Of a DNA stretch of 56,265 bases, positions 9,916 through 31,141 are shown piece by piece. Made by a program: the position numbers and the translations under genes. The notes beneath the pieces were generated by a model. The model made no database searches. It was not told where the DNA came from and worked only from the letters and a program-made list of their open reading frames with translations. The stretch is from an uncultured Flavonifractor sp. (GTDB lineage Bacteria; Bacillota; Clostridia; Oscillospirales; Oscillospiraceae): assembly GCF_944385615.1 (NCBI RefSeq), contig NZ_CALWXV010000009.1, forward strand, positions 1 through 56,265, read 5' to 3'. The first letter of the stretch is position 1. Each line of letters starts with the position of its first letter.

Positions 9916-10425
9916 ATGGGATTGTTTGACGAACTGCGGAGGCTGGCCCGCCCCTATGAGGATGAGGCGGAAGACGACTACGAGGACGACTTTGAGCCTG
10001 TCTCCCGCAGTGAGCGGATGGACCGGACCAGCAGCGACCGGCCTGAGCGCAAGAGCACCAGAAGCCAGTCCATCTCCGAGTCTACCGGCAGCCTCTACTC
10101 TATGGATAACGAGCGCCGCAGCAACAAGGTGGTCAACATCCACACCACCACCCAGCTGCAAGTGGTGCTGGTAAAGCCCGAGCGCTTTGAAAACGCCAGC
10201 GAGATCGCCGACCACCTGCGGGAAAAGCGCACGGTGGTACTCAACCTGGAGTCCACCAACAAGGACATTGCCCGCCGCCTGCTGGACTTTTTGTCCGGCG
10301 TGGCCTATGCCAACGAGGGCAAGATCAAGAAGGTGGCCATCTCTACTTACATCATCACACCCTACAACGTGGATATTCTGGGCGATTTGATTGACGAGCT
10401 GGAGAACAACGGCCTGTATTTCTAA
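9916..10425 (+). CDS. sepF: cell division protein SepF
   Basis: Membrane anchor and organiser of the FtsZ ring. The 169 residues show the expected plan: an amphipathic N-terminal helix (MGLFDELRRLARP), a disordered acidic/Ser-rich linker (about 14-70), and a C-terminal DUF552 domain (about 75-165) with VVLNLESTNKDIARRLLDF and the conserved LSGVAYA. GGAGG precedes the ATG 24 nt after yggS. A second, shorter SepF-like gene occurs at 28493-28816. Confidence 0.95.
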   Translation: MGLFDELRRLARPYEDEAEDDYEDDFEPVSRSERMDRTSSDRPERKSTRSQSISESTGSLYSMDNERRSNKVVNIHTTTQLQVVLVKPERFENASEIADHLREKRTVVLNLESTNKDIARRLLDFLSGVAYANEGKIKKVAISTYIITPYNVDILGDLIDELENNGLYF

Positions 10426-26733: not shown

Positions 26734-27333
26734 TCACTCGCCCTGGGCGATCTGGAGCTGGCCGCTCTCCCGCAGGATGCGGCGCAGGCGGCTGAGGGTC
26801 ACCTGGGTCATGCCCAGGAAAGAGGCGATATGCTTGCCGCTGACCCGGTGGTGCAGGCCGGGGTAGGCCCGCAAAAACCACTGGTAGCGGTCCATGGCGT
26901 CGTACTGGTACATGGCGGCCTTTACCTCCCAGTGGCACTTGAGGGCCTTTTGCAGAAAGGCGCTGTACAGGCGGTAGAGCTGGGGCCACTCCTCCATCTG
27001 CTCCAGCAGGGGGACGATGGGCAGCTCCAGCACCTGGCTGTCCTCCAGTGCCTCCACATTGATGGAAGCGGGCTCTCCCAGTACGATGGAGGCGTTGGCC
27101 GGGGCGCCGGGCTCAAAGGCAAAGCAGTCTGTGATATCCCGGCCGCCTGCGTCCAGGAAATAGCCCCGCAGCAGGCCCTGGACCAAAAAACCCACTTTAG
27201 CGGGCCGCTCTCCCTCCCGATAGAGTGCGTGCCCCTTTTTCAGCCGGCGTATCTCCCCCAGCTGTGTGAGCCGTTGAATGAGCGGTTCATCGGTCAGACC
27301 AAACAGGTCACGGTAGAGCTCCGACAGTCCCAT
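26734..27333 (-). CDS. Crp/Fnr-family transcriptional regulator
   Basis: Regulator of 199 residues with an N-terminal cyclic-nucleotide-binding-fold sensor (about 15-120; GHALYREGERPAKVGFLVQGLLRGYF) and a C-terminal winged helix (about 150-195; SGKHIASFLGMTQVTLSRLRRIL). It has no FNR-type cysteine cluster, so oxygen sensing through Fe-S is unlikely; the ligand is unknown. Two in-frame ATGs exist; 27333 is favoured because GGGAG is 6 nt upstream, whereas it abuts the ATG at 27339. The nearest downstream targets are not evident; it is monocistronic. Confidence 0.88.
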   Translation of the reverse strand: MGLSELYRDLFGLTDEPLIQRLTQLGEIRRLKKGHALYREGERPAKVGFLVQGLLRGYFLDAGGRDITDCFAFEPGAPANASIVLGEPASINVEALEDSQVLELPIVPLLEQMEEWPQLYRLYSAFLQKALKCHWEVKAAMYQYDAMDRYQWFLRAYPGLHHRVSGKHIASFLGMTQVTLSRLRRILRESGQLQIAQGE

Positions 27334-27443
27334 TGCCATCTCCCTTTCCGCTAATAATAACGATTTATTTTATCATAGTTTCTCCTTTTTCTACATTATC
27401 CCAGGTTAACTTCCTTAAATTTCCCCAATATTTTTCCAATCAC

Positions 27444-27746
27444 CTATATAAAAAGCGGATTTGCCCAGGGCTGCTCCTCCAGGTCCAGGTCGGAGGCCAC
27501 GAAAAACCGCCCGCTGTTGGAGGAAAAGAGCAGGGACAGCTTGGGGATGCGTCTTTCAAACCGCTCCTGAACCTGGCTGAGGAGCAAATAGTGGTTTTCC
27601 CGGTATTCCAGCCCTTCCACGCCGCCGGCAAAGCGGTTGCCCAGCGTGCGCCAGAAGTTGGCGCTGAACAGCTCCAGCGTGGACAGGATCAGCGCGTCCA
27701 GCTCCTCCACACCCATGATGTGGTTTTCATTCCATCTAATCTCCAT
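27444..27746 (-). CDS. hypothetical protein (100 residues)
   Basis: Not recognised. The product is acidic and soluble with no signal peptide or membrane segment; it mixes helix-rich (EELDALILSTLELFSANFWRTL) and strand-like (KLSLLFSSNSGRFFVASDLDL) segments. AAGGGAGG lies about 10 nt before the ATG. It lies 87 bp downstream of the VOC gene in the same direction, so it may be the third member of the sepF-like/VOC transcription unit. Codon use resembles neighbours, which supports a real gene. Confidence 0.6.
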   Translation of the reverse strand: MEIRWNENHIMGVEELDALILSTLELFSANFWRTLGNRFAGGVEGLEYRENHYLLLSQVQERFERRIPKLSLLFSSNSGRFFVASDLDLEEQPWANPLFI

Positions 27747-27833
27747 TGACGTCAGGCCTCCCTTTTGCCGCTTTCTTTGATAGGCCTATTTTACTACGTC
27801 ATTATGAAGGCTACATGAAATTCCCATACCGGT

Positions 27834-28496
27834 TTAAACGCCCTGGTCGGGATCGCTCTGCTCAAACTCCCACTGCAAACCGTATTTATCCAGAAAAGAA
27901 AAGGAGCGGATCTGACTCAGACACCTGGCCGTCTCGTCATTGCGGGCGTCGGCCTTGCACAGGTCCTGGTCAAAGTAACACACCTGCTCCGGCGTGGTGG
28001 GACTGTGCCGGAACACCCGGTACGCCTCGGTCTCATTGATAAGCCGGGTATTGGGCACGGTCTTGATGTAGGCAAAGGCCTCGTCAATGTTTTCCACCTG
28101 CAAAGTCACATGCCGCACGCCGCTGACATCGTTGGCCTTAAAAAACAGGGGCGTTTTGCGGCCGATGGGATAATGGTACTGCACCAGCTCCAGGGTGAGC
28201 GTGGTCCCCGGCACCTGTAGGTAGGCGATGGATACCTCTCCATGTTCCGGGTCCTCCAAAAAGCCGGAGGCCTGAAAATAACCTTCATTCTGCCAATAGG
28301 GCAGGCAGTAATCAGGCTCCGCCCCCAGCAGCTGCCAGTAATACGCCACCGCCGTACGGATGTGCTCCACCAAAACGCAGATGTGGGACAGGCCGGTAAA
28401 CCGGGGTGGGGCGGGGTGGACCTGCACCGCCTCCGCTTCCTCCTCCAATCCGGCACAAAGAGGACTGACACAGGGCATCATTTCTTTGGTTTTCAT
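27834..28496 (-). CDS. VOC-superfamily (glyoxalase-fold) metalloprotein
   Basis: Protein of 220 residues with two paired beta-alpha-beta-beta-beta modules. The metal-ligand pattern of catalytic VOC enzymes appears complete: H38 (GLSHICVLV), E103 (TLTLELVQ), H129 (GVRHVTLQV) and E210 (LQWEFEQ). This resembles glyoxalase/methylmalonyl-CoA-epimerase-type enzymes more than drug-binding resistance proteins. A 30-residue N-terminal extension with two cysteines is unusual. Its ATG overlaps the stop of the SepF-like gene (28494-28496), so the two are translated together. Substrate unknown. Confidence 0.8.
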   Translation of the reverse strand: MKTKEMMPCVSPLCAGLEEEAEAVQVHPAPPRFTGLSHICVLVEHIRTAVAYYWQLLGAEPDYCLPYWQNEGYFQASGFLEDPEHGEVSIAYLQVPGTTLTLELVQYHYPIGRKTPLFFKANDVSGVRHVTLQVENIDEAFAYIKTVPNTRLINETEAYRVFRHSPTTPEQVCYFDQDLCKADARNDETARCLSQIRSFSFLDKYGLQWEFEQSDPDQGV

Positions 28497-28816
28497 AGGA
28501 TCACACCTTCTGACAGTATGCTGTTGGACGCCTGCGGGCCGCCCGAGAGATAAAAGTGAAAGTCGTCTACCCGCCGGATGAAGCCGCCCTTGGCGTACAC
28601 CACGCCGGAGAGAAAGTGGAGGGTACGCTGGGCCACCTCCACATCCATGTCCTCCAGATGGACCTCCACCGCCCGCAGGCTCATCAGCTGCCGGGCGGCG
28701 TGCTCCAGATCCGCCGAGGAACGTAAGCGTACAAGGAGGGGCCTGGCCTGGGTCCAGCTCTGAATGGAAATCACGTTGTCCTGTTGTTCAAAATCAATTG
28801 ATCTGATTGCTTCCAT
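28493..28816 (-). CDS. SepF-like protein (paralogue)
   Basis: Protein of 107 residues related to the SepF core domain. Its segment LEDMDVEVAQRTLHFLSGVVYAKGGFIRRV lines up with the main SepF sequence around LSGVAYANEGKIKKV at residues 110-145, and the preceding VISIQSW-TQ-LV pattern also aligns. It lacks SepF's amphipathic membrane helix and linker, so it probably cannot tether to membrane alone; it might pair with SepF or work elsewhere. AGGAGGAG lies about 6 nt before ATG 28816. First gene of the unit with the VOC protein; divergent from the LytTR two-component pair. Confidence 0.8.
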   Translation of the reverse strand: MEAIRSIDFEQQDNVISIQSWTQARPLLVRLRSSADLEHAARQLMSLRAVEVHLEDMDVEVAQRTLHFLSGVVYAKGGFIRRVDDFHFYLSGGPQASNSILSEGVIL

Positions 28817-28924
28817 AATGCGCTCCTCCTCTGTTTTTGCCGGGTATTCAGCCGGAAAAGACGCCGGATGGCCCCGGCCCCCTTCCCCATGTCATGCCCC
28901 TTGACGGCTCATCGCCTTCATGTT

Positions 28925-28954
28925 ATTGTAAACTTAATCTATTTTTACCCGATT
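28925..28954 (-). promoter_or_regulatory. candidate promoter of the sepF-like/VOC unit
   Basis: Minus strand: TACAAT (28930-28925) with a poor -35 region 17 bp upstream. A weak -35 next to upstream direct repeats suggests dependence on an activator. Confidence 0.4.
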
Positions 28955-28963
28955 TGGTAGCAC

Positions 28964-28996
28964 TTGTGCAAAATTTAGTCCTATTTGCGCAAAATT
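28964..28996. promoter_or_regulatory. direct repeats, candidate LytTR-binding site
   Basis: TTGTGCAAAATT (28964-28975) and TTGCGCAAAATT (28985-28996) differ at one position and are 21 bp apart start to start, i.e. two helical turns. LytTR-domain regulators such as AgrA bind paired direct repeats with this spacing. The site lies upstream of the divergent sepF-like promoter and just before the regulator gene. Apart from this site and the weak promoter, 28817-29027 shows nothing else. Confidence 0.6.
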
Positions 28997-29027
28997 CGAC
29001 AATTTTTTAGAAAGCGGGTGGATGCCT

Positions 29028-29780
29028 ATGGTACAAGTAGCGGTTTGTGACGACGATCCCGACTACCTGCACAAAATGACAGATCTTCTCCATGTATATT
29101 TTCAGACCCATTCCACGCTCCACGGACAGATCTCCGTTTTTCAGCGGGGGGAGGAACTGCTGGAACAGGCCGGGGCACAGAGCGGTTTTGACCTCTACCT
29201 TTTGGACGTGCTCATGCCGGGGCTCAACGGCATCCAGACCGGCCACCGGCTGCGGGAGCTGGGGGACGGAGGGGAGATCATCTATCTGTCCACGTCAGAC
29301 GATTACGCGGTGGACAGCTATGACGTATCCGCTTTTTTCTACCTGCTGAAACCGGTGGACCGGGAGAAGCTCTTTTCGGTGCTGGACCGGGCGGTAGCGC
29401 AGCTGGAGCGGCGGCGCAGCAGTCGGATAAACAGCGTTGTCATCGTAAGCACGCCCCAGGGCCCCCGGCGGGTCCGTATGGAGGATATCCGGTATGTGGA
29501 GCGGGTGGGGCGCATCATGCGCTACCACTGTGCCGGCGAGGTGGTGGACTCCCAAAGCATTCGGACCTCTTTTAAGGAGATGACCGCCCCCCTTTTGTCC
29601 GACGGCCGGTTTTACCGGTGCGGCGCCAGCTTTGTGCTCAACTTCCAGCACATCACCGGGGTGCGGGGCCAGAGTGCCCTGCTGGATGACGGCGGGGTCC
29701 TGCCGCTGCCCCGGATGGCGGTGGCCGCTTTTAAAAACGCGTGGGGGAAATTCTGGCTGGAGGAAAACACAACCTGGTAG
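29028..29780 (+). CDS. LytTR-family response regulator
   Basis: Response regulator of 250 residues. The receiver domain (1-120) has the acidic pocket VCDDDP (8-10), phospho-acceptor D60 (LYLLDVLMPG) and the conserved LLKPV lysine near 112; a LytTR DNA-binding domain follows (about 140-240; VRMEDIRYVERVGRIMRYHC). The ATG at 29028 is 6 nt after GGGTGG; the ATG at 29022 abuts it. It precedes its probable partner kinase and diverges from the sepF-like/VOC unit. Confidence 0.9.
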   Translation: MVQVAVCDDDPDYLHKMTDLLHVYFQTHSTLHGQISVFQRGEELLEQAGAQSGFDLYLLDVLMPGLNGIQTGHRLRELGDGGEIIYLSTSDDYAVDSYDVSAFFYLLKPVDREKLFSVLDRAVAQLERRRSSRINSVVIVSTPQGPRRVRMEDIRYVERVGRIMRYHCAGEVVDSQSIRTSFKEMTAPLLSDGRFYRCGASFVLNFQHITGVRGQSALLDDGGVLPLPRMAVAAFKNAWGKFWLEENTTW

Positions 29781-29854
29781 GACGTCCTCGGGGGCAAATC
29801 GTCCTGACCCTGTTGGCCCATTAAAAACAGAGTATTGGAAAAGGGGATGAGATA

Positions 29855-31141
29855 TTGGTGGAATACAGCATAGGATTTTTGATTGTTCGCAGCTTTTTTA
29901 TCACCATTATGACCCTGGGTATGATGGCCAGCCTGACAGACTTCCGTTTCAGCGTTCGGAAACTGCTGGTGATTCTGCTGGTCTATCTGAGTTGGGTGGC
30001 GTTCTCCTGCGGGGTACTGCTGTATGTGGGGGGAGAGGTGCTGCTGCTGCGGGTGTTCCTGCTGAACGTATCGTTTCCCGCCATCCTGATCTCCTATTGG
30101 GCGGCCAAGGACACCCCCGCCCTGGCAGTATTCAACTACATGACACAGATCGTCTTTTCCCTGGTGGCCGCCTCATTCTGCCGGATGCTGACCGAGCTGT
30201 GGAAGCTGCCCCCCATGATGAATTTTGTGTTCATGTGTCTGTTTTACCTGCCGGTGATCTGGCTGGAATGGCGGTTTTTGCGGCAGCCCTTCCGGGCGCT
30301 GGCCGCTGTCCTGCCCACCCGTTGGTGGTGGGTACTGACCCCCATCCCCTGCATATTTTGCGCCTATCTGATCCTTCTGGCCACATGGCCCCAGAGCTAT
30401 ATGGACAACGACATCCAGCGTATCTATCTCTACACTGCGATTCTGCCGCTTCTGGTGGTGTACATCAGCGTCTTTATAGGGCTTCATAACCAGTATTACG
30501 TCCAGCTGGAGCGGCAGAACGCCGCTCTGGTGGCCATTCAGGTCTCGGCCCTCCAGCAAAAATTGCAGGCCACAAGGGACACGGCGGAAACTGTAAATAT
30601 CCTTCGCCATGATCTGCGCCACCGCCTTCAGACGGCGGCGGAGCTGGTGGCCCGGGGAGACCGGGAGGAGGCGCTGGCCTTTCTGGACGCCGCCCAAATG
30701 CGGCTGAACCAGCAAAAGCCGGTGCGCTGGTGCCGCCCCCCGGTGCTGGACGCCATGTTCTCCTCCTATTTTGAGCAGGCCCGGCGGCAGGAGATCGCCG
30801 TAGACGCCCAGATCGCCCTGCCCGACCAGCTGCCGGTGGACGAGGGGGAGCTGGCTGTGGTCTTTGCCAACGCCCTGGAAAACGCCATCCACGCCTGCGC
30901 CGCTCTGCCCCCGGAGCAGCGGGCGTTGTGGTGCAAGGTCATCTCCCGGCCCAGCATTATGCTGGAGATCTCCAATCCCTGCGCCGGACCGGTGACCTTT
31001 GACAGAAAGGGCTTGCCGGTATCCAGCCAGCAGGGACACGGTCTGGGAAGCCGGTCCATCTATGCCTTTTGTCAGAAATACGGAGCCAGCCTGAAGTTTT
31101 GCTATGAAAACGGGTGGTTTTCCATGCGGCTGGTTTTGTAA
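29855..31141 (+). CDS. GHKL-type sensor histidine kinase (AgrC/VirS-like)
   Basis: Membrane kinase of 428 residues. The N-terminal half (about 1-210) has six or seven hydrophobic helices and no large external domain, as in peptide-sensing AgrC-like kinases. A coiled linker leads to the H box NILRHDLRHRLQ with H252, and the ATPase domain has the N box N339-ALEN-AIHAC and a G box GHGLGSRSIYAF. The start codon is TTG 29855 (GTG 29858 possible) behind AAGGGGATGAG. No pheromone precursor gene was found nearby, so the signal is unknown. Confidence 0.9.
   Translation: MVEYSIGFLIVRSFFITIMTLGMMASLTDFRFSVRKLLVILLVYLSWVAFSCGVLLYVGGEVLLLRVFLLNVSFPAILISYWAAKDTPALAVFNYMTQIVFSLVAASFCRMLTELWKLPPMMNFVFMCLFYLPVIWLEWRFLRQPFRALAAVLPTRWWWVLTPIPCIFCAYLILLATWPQSYMDNDIQRIYLYTAILPLLVVYISVFIGLHNQYYVQLERQNAALVAIQVSALQQKLQATRDTAETVNILRHDLRHRLQTAAELVARGDREEALAFLDAAQMRLNQQKPVRWCRPPVLDAMFSSYFEQARRQEIAVDAQIALPDQLPVDEGELAVVFANALENAIHACAALPPEQRALWCKVISRPSIMLEISNPCAGPVTFDRKGLPVSSQQGHGLGSRSIYAFCQKYGASLKFCYENGWFSMRLVL

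Follow-up and report, generated by a model that had tools for sequence, protein, structure and literature searches.

Can a bacterium place its own FtsZ anchor, or a relative of it, under the control of an external signal? This question is raised by a locus in a contig of 56,265 bases (the window, in what follows) from an uncultured Flavonifractor sp., whose genome assembly amounts to 2.69 Mb with a completeness of 89.55%. There, a 107-residue protein related to SepF, which we have named SepFL, is encoded on the minus strand at 28493-28816, opposite a LytTR response regulator and a GHKL kinase. As described below, both the SepF homology of this protein and its conserved link to a LytTR regulator are close to certain, and its regulation by the LytTR/GHKL system is strongly suggested by the arrangement of the sequences. 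We consider it an even call whether SepFL acts as a soluble, core-only SepF variant, controlled by a two-component system, that modulates FtsZ anchoring. The SepF homology, the absence of the membrane helix, the linkage and a conserved repeat are the parts of this proposal that can be read from the DNA, while an effect of SepFL on division is what we infer from them.

A SepF core without the membrane helix

The first-pass annotation of the window had claimed that the 107-residue protein carries the core of SepF and lacks its membrane helix, and both claims held. SepFL scored 44.5 bits against the Pfam SepF profile (cut-off 27), matched solved SepF chains (best E 4.1e-6) and was 36% identical across 81 residues to the main SepF of the window (9916-10425, plus strand; Pfam SepF 93.8 bits). 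A search of the source genome returned two SepF domains in total. The motif LSGVVYAKGG of SepFL, which had been set against LSGVAYANEG of the main SepF, was correct as given. The top hydrophobic moment at the N-terminus was 0.40 in SepFL versus 0.88 in the main SepF, the start of SepFL aligns to the end of the linker of the main protein (NVISIQSWT versus NKVVNIHTTT), and the tail that follows the core is short. Given the missing N-terminal amphipathic helix, SepFL is by its sequence a SepF-domain paralogue and not a canonical SepF anchor. The main sepF gene sits in a cluster with divIVA and then a class I tRNA synthetase gene (ileS) downstream, and the SepFL locus lies about 18 kb further on.

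We then compared SepFL with SepF proteins whose working residues have been reported, using a 90-residue chain of Corynebacterium glutamicum SepF in which chain position plus 62 gives the published numbering (the construct spans 63-152; PMC7118173). G71, R82 and F88 of SepFL align with G114, K125 and F131 of that protein. G114 is described as buried within the bacterial SepF dimer interface (PMC8178401), and the K125E/F131A change is reported to remove detectable FtsZ binding, for which a value of 15 micromolar is given for C. glutamicum SepF (PMC7118173). In Bacillus subtilis SepF the three positions are occupied by Gly, Arg and Phe, so that R82 of SepFL is Arg as there; F126 of the B. subtilis protein, a change of which is reported to impair FtsZ binding (PMC5717166), sits 17 residues past G109, a spacing equal to that in C. 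glutamicum. The main SepF of the window has Gly, Lys and Tyr. Across the six SepFL proteins that we found, the Gly and a basic residue are present in 6/6 and the Phe in 5/6, as counted by eye. Since the dimer and FtsZ-contact residues are kept, SepFL is predicted to form dimers and to bind the FtsZ tail.

Linkage to a LytTR regulator and a recurrent repeat

The LytTR response regulator (29022-29780, plus strand; Pfam Response_reg 60.1 bits, cut-off 30.2; LytTR 27.1 bits, cut-off 22.6) and the AgrC-like GHKL membrane kinase (29855-31141, plus strand; HATPase_c_5 47 bits, cut-off 22) are encoded opposite SepFL, in agreement with the first-pass annotation in both coordinates and domains; the TTG start of the kinase at 29855 is the mechanical start of the open reading frame (ORF) list. 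All five ORFs of the proposed module, including a 100-residue orphan, were verified at the coordinates given for them, and in every case the listed frame beat the other five by codon use (z 6.0 to 15.0). The SepFL start codon is preceded by AGGAGG.

Is this arrangement conserved? In the family, 134 of 150 genomes had some match to SepFL, the close match being in the window's own genome only and the others scoring at most 40 bits; in the genus, SepFL was present in 1 of 20 genomes and any match in 19. A draw of 297 genomes from the order, for which at least 90% completeness was requested and which nonetheless included that of the window, held 12 with at least two SepF domains. We fetched 11 of them (the window's excepted) together with G131, whose second SepF candidate, a weak match, had no second Pfam SepF match and was discarded. 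The extra SepF genes were of three kinds. Three genomes of family f8 have a second copy in tandem, eight of family f13 have a second copy of full or medium length, and the f13 genomes G279, G349 and G340 carry small third copies, of 101, 108 and 109 residues. The small copies adjoin a LytTR regulator 40-42% identical to that of the window. In G279 and G349 SepFL is divergent from LytTR-GHKL, and in G340 it lies ahead of LytTR on the same strand with no kinase adjacent; SepFL is carried by three of the seven genomes in that f13 genus. A scan for the VOC protein of the module also brought up Candidatus Flavonifractor merdigallinarum (locus L063), the sole SepFL match among 72 loci (tblastn, E 1e-3), which has the same order as the window, SpoIIID-GHKL-LytTR / SepFL-VOC. 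The link between SepFL and LytTR thus recurs in a second Oscillospiraceae genome and in three f13 genomes, and the five linked loci are the window, L063, L163 (in G279), L164 and L165 (in G340). A sixth SepFL (L200), 47% identical over 72 residues, was found in the genome that also carries L039. Both it and the SepFL of the window lie downstream of RNase Y and on its strand, at distances of about 2.3 kb and 2.7 kb, respectively. All six proteins exceed the Pfam SepF cut-off, those other than the window's with 35.1 to 43 bits.

The search for close relatives elsewhere in the class gave matches in 115 of 341 genomes (E 1e-13), but those listed were, the window's SepFL excepted, frames of at least 145 residues, which resemble the main SepF and were therefore not taken as SepFL. 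As for the other extra copies, L150, L152 and L155 (in G156, G198 and G180) have a second SepF gene in tandem directly behind the main sepF and no LytTR; in L152 and L155 it encodes about 108 residues with no obvious N-terminal helix. The f13 loci L151, L153, L156, L158 and L159 hold, besides the main SepF, another of full length that has an N-terminal part of its own and lies in a conserved setting of metabolic genes. In G279 (L163, 5376-8544) a class B penicillin-binding protein gene converges on SepFL, beside an FHA-FtsW/RodA gene, a proximity that counts for a role in division.

The control region provided the second line of evidence. Upstream of SepFL, all five SepFL/LytTR loci carry a direct repeat with a period of 21 bp. 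In the window the putative LytTR operator (28964-29003) has the form GTGCAAAATT-N11-GCGCAAAATT at 28966-28996, its half-sites occupying 28966-28975 and 28987-28996. This spacing agrees with the 9-12-9 layout described for LytTR operators, in which 9-bp repeats usually lie 12 bp apart and usually 10 bp upstream of the -35 element (PMC6193735). When a matrix was built from the three f13 sites, it ranked the window site first over the 56 kb and both strands (18.5, runner-up 9.7), and likewise the L063 site (19.4, runner-up 5.2). The matrix built from the window and L063 ranked the sites of L163 (24.3 versus 12.5) and L164 (21.1 versus 11.6) first in their turn. A degenerate pattern derived from the five sites gave zero-mismatch matches solely at the five SepFL genes in the nine genomes scanned; the matching of the five sites is by construction, the absence of further matches is not. 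When up to two mismatches were allowed, match numbers in the AT-rich f13 genomes were close to those of the reversed control (7/4, 16/15, 9/9 and 6/7), and G000, G280, G857 and G861 gave more (4/0, 4/0, 3/0 and 6/0), some of these sites adjoining LytTR/GHKL genes of the same family. Similar upstream repeats accompany same-family LytTR genes without SepFL at L215 (genome of L054), L229 (G280) and L211 (G861), where the targets may differ.

In L165 the repeat is still upstream of SepFL even though LytTR is not divergent, and a promoter-like site facing away from SepFL persists, indicating that the repeat is tied to SepFL. The 16-mer TGCGCAAAATTCGACA is common to the window site, the L063 site and the upstream region of L200, which scores low on the full matrix (best 13.0); in viral contigs the 16-mer occurred in 5 stretches. 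A promoter-like site directed towards LytTR (28901-28929, plus strand; TTGACG-17-TATTGT) has similar counterparts in L063, L163 and L165, and L164 fails the pattern; these are consensus matches only, and as a set show no excess (3 sites found versus 2.4 expected in shuffles). A possible -10 of SepFL, TACAAT at 28925-28930 on the minus strand, is a loose and at most suggestive match that overlaps the -10 of the opposite promoter. Of the signal-controlled, soluble SepF variant proposed in the first-pass annotation, the tie to LytTR/GHKL thus gained a recurrent linkage and a conserved repeat, with the reservation that one f13 locus has no adjacent kinase. Of the two grounds for refutation named there, a neighbourhood that is not conserved in relatives is not what the comparison showed; as to the other, a predicted fold unlike SepF, what can be said is that SepFL exceeds the family cut-off by its sequence.

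The VOC protein and other neighbours

The SepFL gene overlaps by ATGA (28493-28496) the gene of the VOC protein (27834-28496, minus strand; 220 residues; Pfam Glyoxalase 25.7 bits, cut-off 20.6), as had been claimed, and VOC still lies beside SepFL in L063. This raises the possibility that the SepF fold of SepFL serves a purpose outside division, for instance as partner of VOC or in some other pathway. The long branches on which SepFL sequences sit in the SepF tree and the loss of the Phe in L200 would fit that idea. It is made unlikely, in our judgement, by the dimer and FtsZ-contact positions kept in most SepFL proteins and by the absence of VOC from three of the five linked loci. VOC was present in 2/5 of these (the window and L063 only), in 4/394 genomes of the order and in 3/150 of the family; the three f13 genomes with SepFL were not among the order-wide VOC matches, their inclusion in that search being judged from their genome numbers. 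The full H-E-H-E metal set of the first-pass annotation (H38, E103, H129, E210) is indeed present in the window, and in a 40-row alignment E210 was invariant and the other three nearly so, but L063 has His at 103 and Ser at 129. With two ligands lost there and with so sparse a distribution, VOC could not be upheld as an obligatory partner of SepFL, and we rejected it as a constant one.

Where, then, does VOC come from? Partner-switching genes, taken as an ABC-ATPase/kinase fusion, STAS, PP2C or an N-terminal HATPase-like domain, lay within 8 kb in 43 of 67 loci with close relatives of VOC (counts by tblastn), and in 16 of the 67 the N-terminal HATPase-like domain was fused to VOC itself. LytTR or GHKL genes lay within 2.5 kb in 14 (L063 included); three loci had both kinds of neighbour and 13 had neither. 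The flanks of seven loci, again with L063, held a LytTR 53-66% identical to that of the window. VOC and this LytTR family therefore have common neighbourhoods, which may explain the presence of VOC beside SepFL. The VOC family (L036-L102, e.g. L034, L035, L053 and L066) recurs in signalling operons of gut Clostridia, with ABC-ATPase/kinase fusions, STAS and SpoIIE-type PP2C proteins as neighbours; some loci also have, as read from the sequences, MATE-like transporters that end in an ATPase-like part, or genes resembling those of non-ribosomal peptide synthetases. Our literature search found no report of partner switching with a glyoxalase. The closest characterised match of the VOC protein was methylmalonyl-CoA epimerase, but it scored 25.9 bits on the corresponding NCBIfam model TIGR03081, which has a cut-off of 114.95, and so fails it. 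We conclude that VOC is an accessory, co-transcribed by overlap, with relatives in signalling modules, and possibly a ligand sensor.

The orphan (27444-27746, minus strand; 100 residues; no Pfam match) is present after VOC as annotated and is coding by codon use. It had no match in the 72 loci (tblastn, E 1e-3) or in viral contigs, whole genomes not being searched, and was rejected as a member of the module. Downstream of it, on the same strand, lies a Crp/Fnr-like regulator (26734-27339; cNMP_binding 37.2 bits). A phage or plasmid origin of SepFL was likewise rejected, with no relative in viral contigs and only two weak plasmid and two weak phage records, as was a defence system, the five proteins having no PADLOC match. 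Neither the search of viral contigs for a deeper SepF alignment nor the phrogs comparison yielded anything useful.

A possible route to the Z-ring, its rivals and known systems

How could such a locus act on division? In the scheme that we propose, an external cue would be sensed by the GHKL kinase and passed, presumably by phosphorelay, to the LytTR regulator, which would switch SepFL transcription, in one direction or the other, through the direct-repeat site upstream of SepFL. SepFL would then form dimers of the SepF type, either homodimers or heterodimers with the main SepF, its likely target or dimer partner, and would occupy the C-terminal tail of FtsZ without a membrane anchor. The cue would thereby alter the tethering or bundling of FtsZ, SepFL acting on the Z-ring as a brake or a tuner, and this core unit would work without VOC. 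Published work on SepF is compatible with such effects: a C. glutamicum SepF dead for FtsZ binding is reported to engage native SepF and to yield extra rings (PMC7118173), an archaeal SepF core without its membrane part to bundle FtsZ (PMC8178401), and surplus SepF of B. subtilis to block late division proteins (PMC5717166).

Several observations weigh against this scheme. Overproduced SepF-L7D, which does not bind the membrane, is reported to be harmless in B. subtilis lacking wild-type SepF, and the harm done by surplus SepF in that species to require membrane binding and polymerisation, being traced to membrane-associated polymers (PMC5717166). A soluble SepF therefore need not be a brake; it may act only alongside native SepF, or as a positive bundler, and this counter-evidence is why we hold our overall confidence at an even level. 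Within our own data, L200 has Ile in place of the FtsZ-contact Phe and no neighbouring LytTR, the L165 site came first on the window and L063 matrix by a narrow margin (14.8 versus 13.9), and SepFL is rare in its genus. The LytTR regulators of SepFL loci belong to an Oscillospirales family also found without SepFL, and a single clade of the five linked regulators was rejected (approximately unbiased (AU) test, p 0.012) in a tree with a biased sample, most of its sequences being from loci that had been retrieved for VOC or for sites. The SepFL proteins of the window, L063 and L200 group in one clade with support of 100/99, with those of f13 apart on a long branch of the SepF tree; a single SepFL clade was not rejected (p 0.25; few columns, long branches). 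These trees would fit one ancient association that was lost many times as well as two recruitments.

The rarity just mentioned would also suit a decaying copy of SepF that lies beside a two-component system by chance, and the ratio of nonsynonymous to synonymous change (dN/dS) points the same way in one respect: at the linked loci it was higher in SepFL (window-L063 0.26, with dS 1.37; within f13 0.31-0.42) than in the LytTR partners (0.18-0.23), and higher still between the window and L200 (0.56, dS 1.38; L063 and L200 gave 0.42, dS 1.73). However, it stayed below 0.45 in 4/4 linked pairs with finite dS, the reading frames are intact at six loci, and the linkage in two families comes with a conserved repeat, making decay very improbable.

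The L7D result bears on a different proposal, namely that SepFL promotes a specialised division, such as the sporulation septum or a change of shape, bundling FtsZ at a chosen time. A membrane-dead SepF that does not inhibit (PMC5717166), an archaeal core that bundles (PMC8178401) and the inclusion of Streptomyces SepF2 in the sporulation divisome (PMC8748795) are all in line with it, and both in the window and in L063 the module has SpoIIID as a neighbour. Judging from the ORFs read, SpoIIID is not adjacent at the f13 loci, and we consider this proposal rather doubtful, if worth keeping in mind. The modulator of FtsZ anchoring under two-component control remains our preferred reading. Its fullest form is a system dedicated to one target, in which an AgrC-like kinase senses an extracellular cue and turns on a SepF that lacks the anchor and rewires the tethering of FtsZ. 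Division itself would then be a signalling output in gut Oscillospirales; to this fullest form we give a little less than even credence.

How does the locus compare with systems already described? Like the SepF anchors of B. subtilis and C. glutamicum, SepFL has the SepF domain and the Gly, basic and Phe positions; unlike them, it has no amphipathic N-terminus, has a short tail, and lies outside the sepF-divIVA cluster, beside LytTR and the repeat. Extra SepF-domain proteins besides the main one are known from Streptomyces, where SepF2 and SepF3 correspond to SflA and SflB. In the account consulted, these two are actinobacterial, SepF2 is tied to the divisome and no link to LytTR/GHKL is mentioned (PMC8748795). 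With AgrA/AgrC-type systems the locus has in common the receiver-LytTR regulator, the GHKL kinase and a 21-bp-period repeat close to the 9-12-9 layout, although the repeat sequence departs from the LytTR consensus tabulated in PMC6193735. It differs from Agr in its regulator, which scored 40.3 bits on NCBIfam AgrA (cut-off 400), and in its target, a SepF paralogue; no AgrB or AgrD gene was among the eight ORFs profiled, the genome not being searched for them. The VOC protein shares the four-ligand set with methylmalonyl-CoA epimerase and other VOC proteins, but falls below the epimerase cut-off, and its close relatives stand mostly beside partner-switching genes.

We found no report of a SepF paralogue linked to LytTR/GHKL in the open-access literature, a scope that leaves out most subscription papers and preprints, and co-mentions of SepF and LytTR appeared incidental from their titles. 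Most of the known routes by which external cues reach FtsZ act through unrelated inhibitors; here the protein that lies beside one regulator, with one zero-mismatch operator in each of five genomes of two families, is itself a paralogue of the FtsZ anchor and lacks the helix. If SepFL binds FtsZ or SepF, gut Clostridia would have in it a small and directly testable path linking division to an environmental signal.

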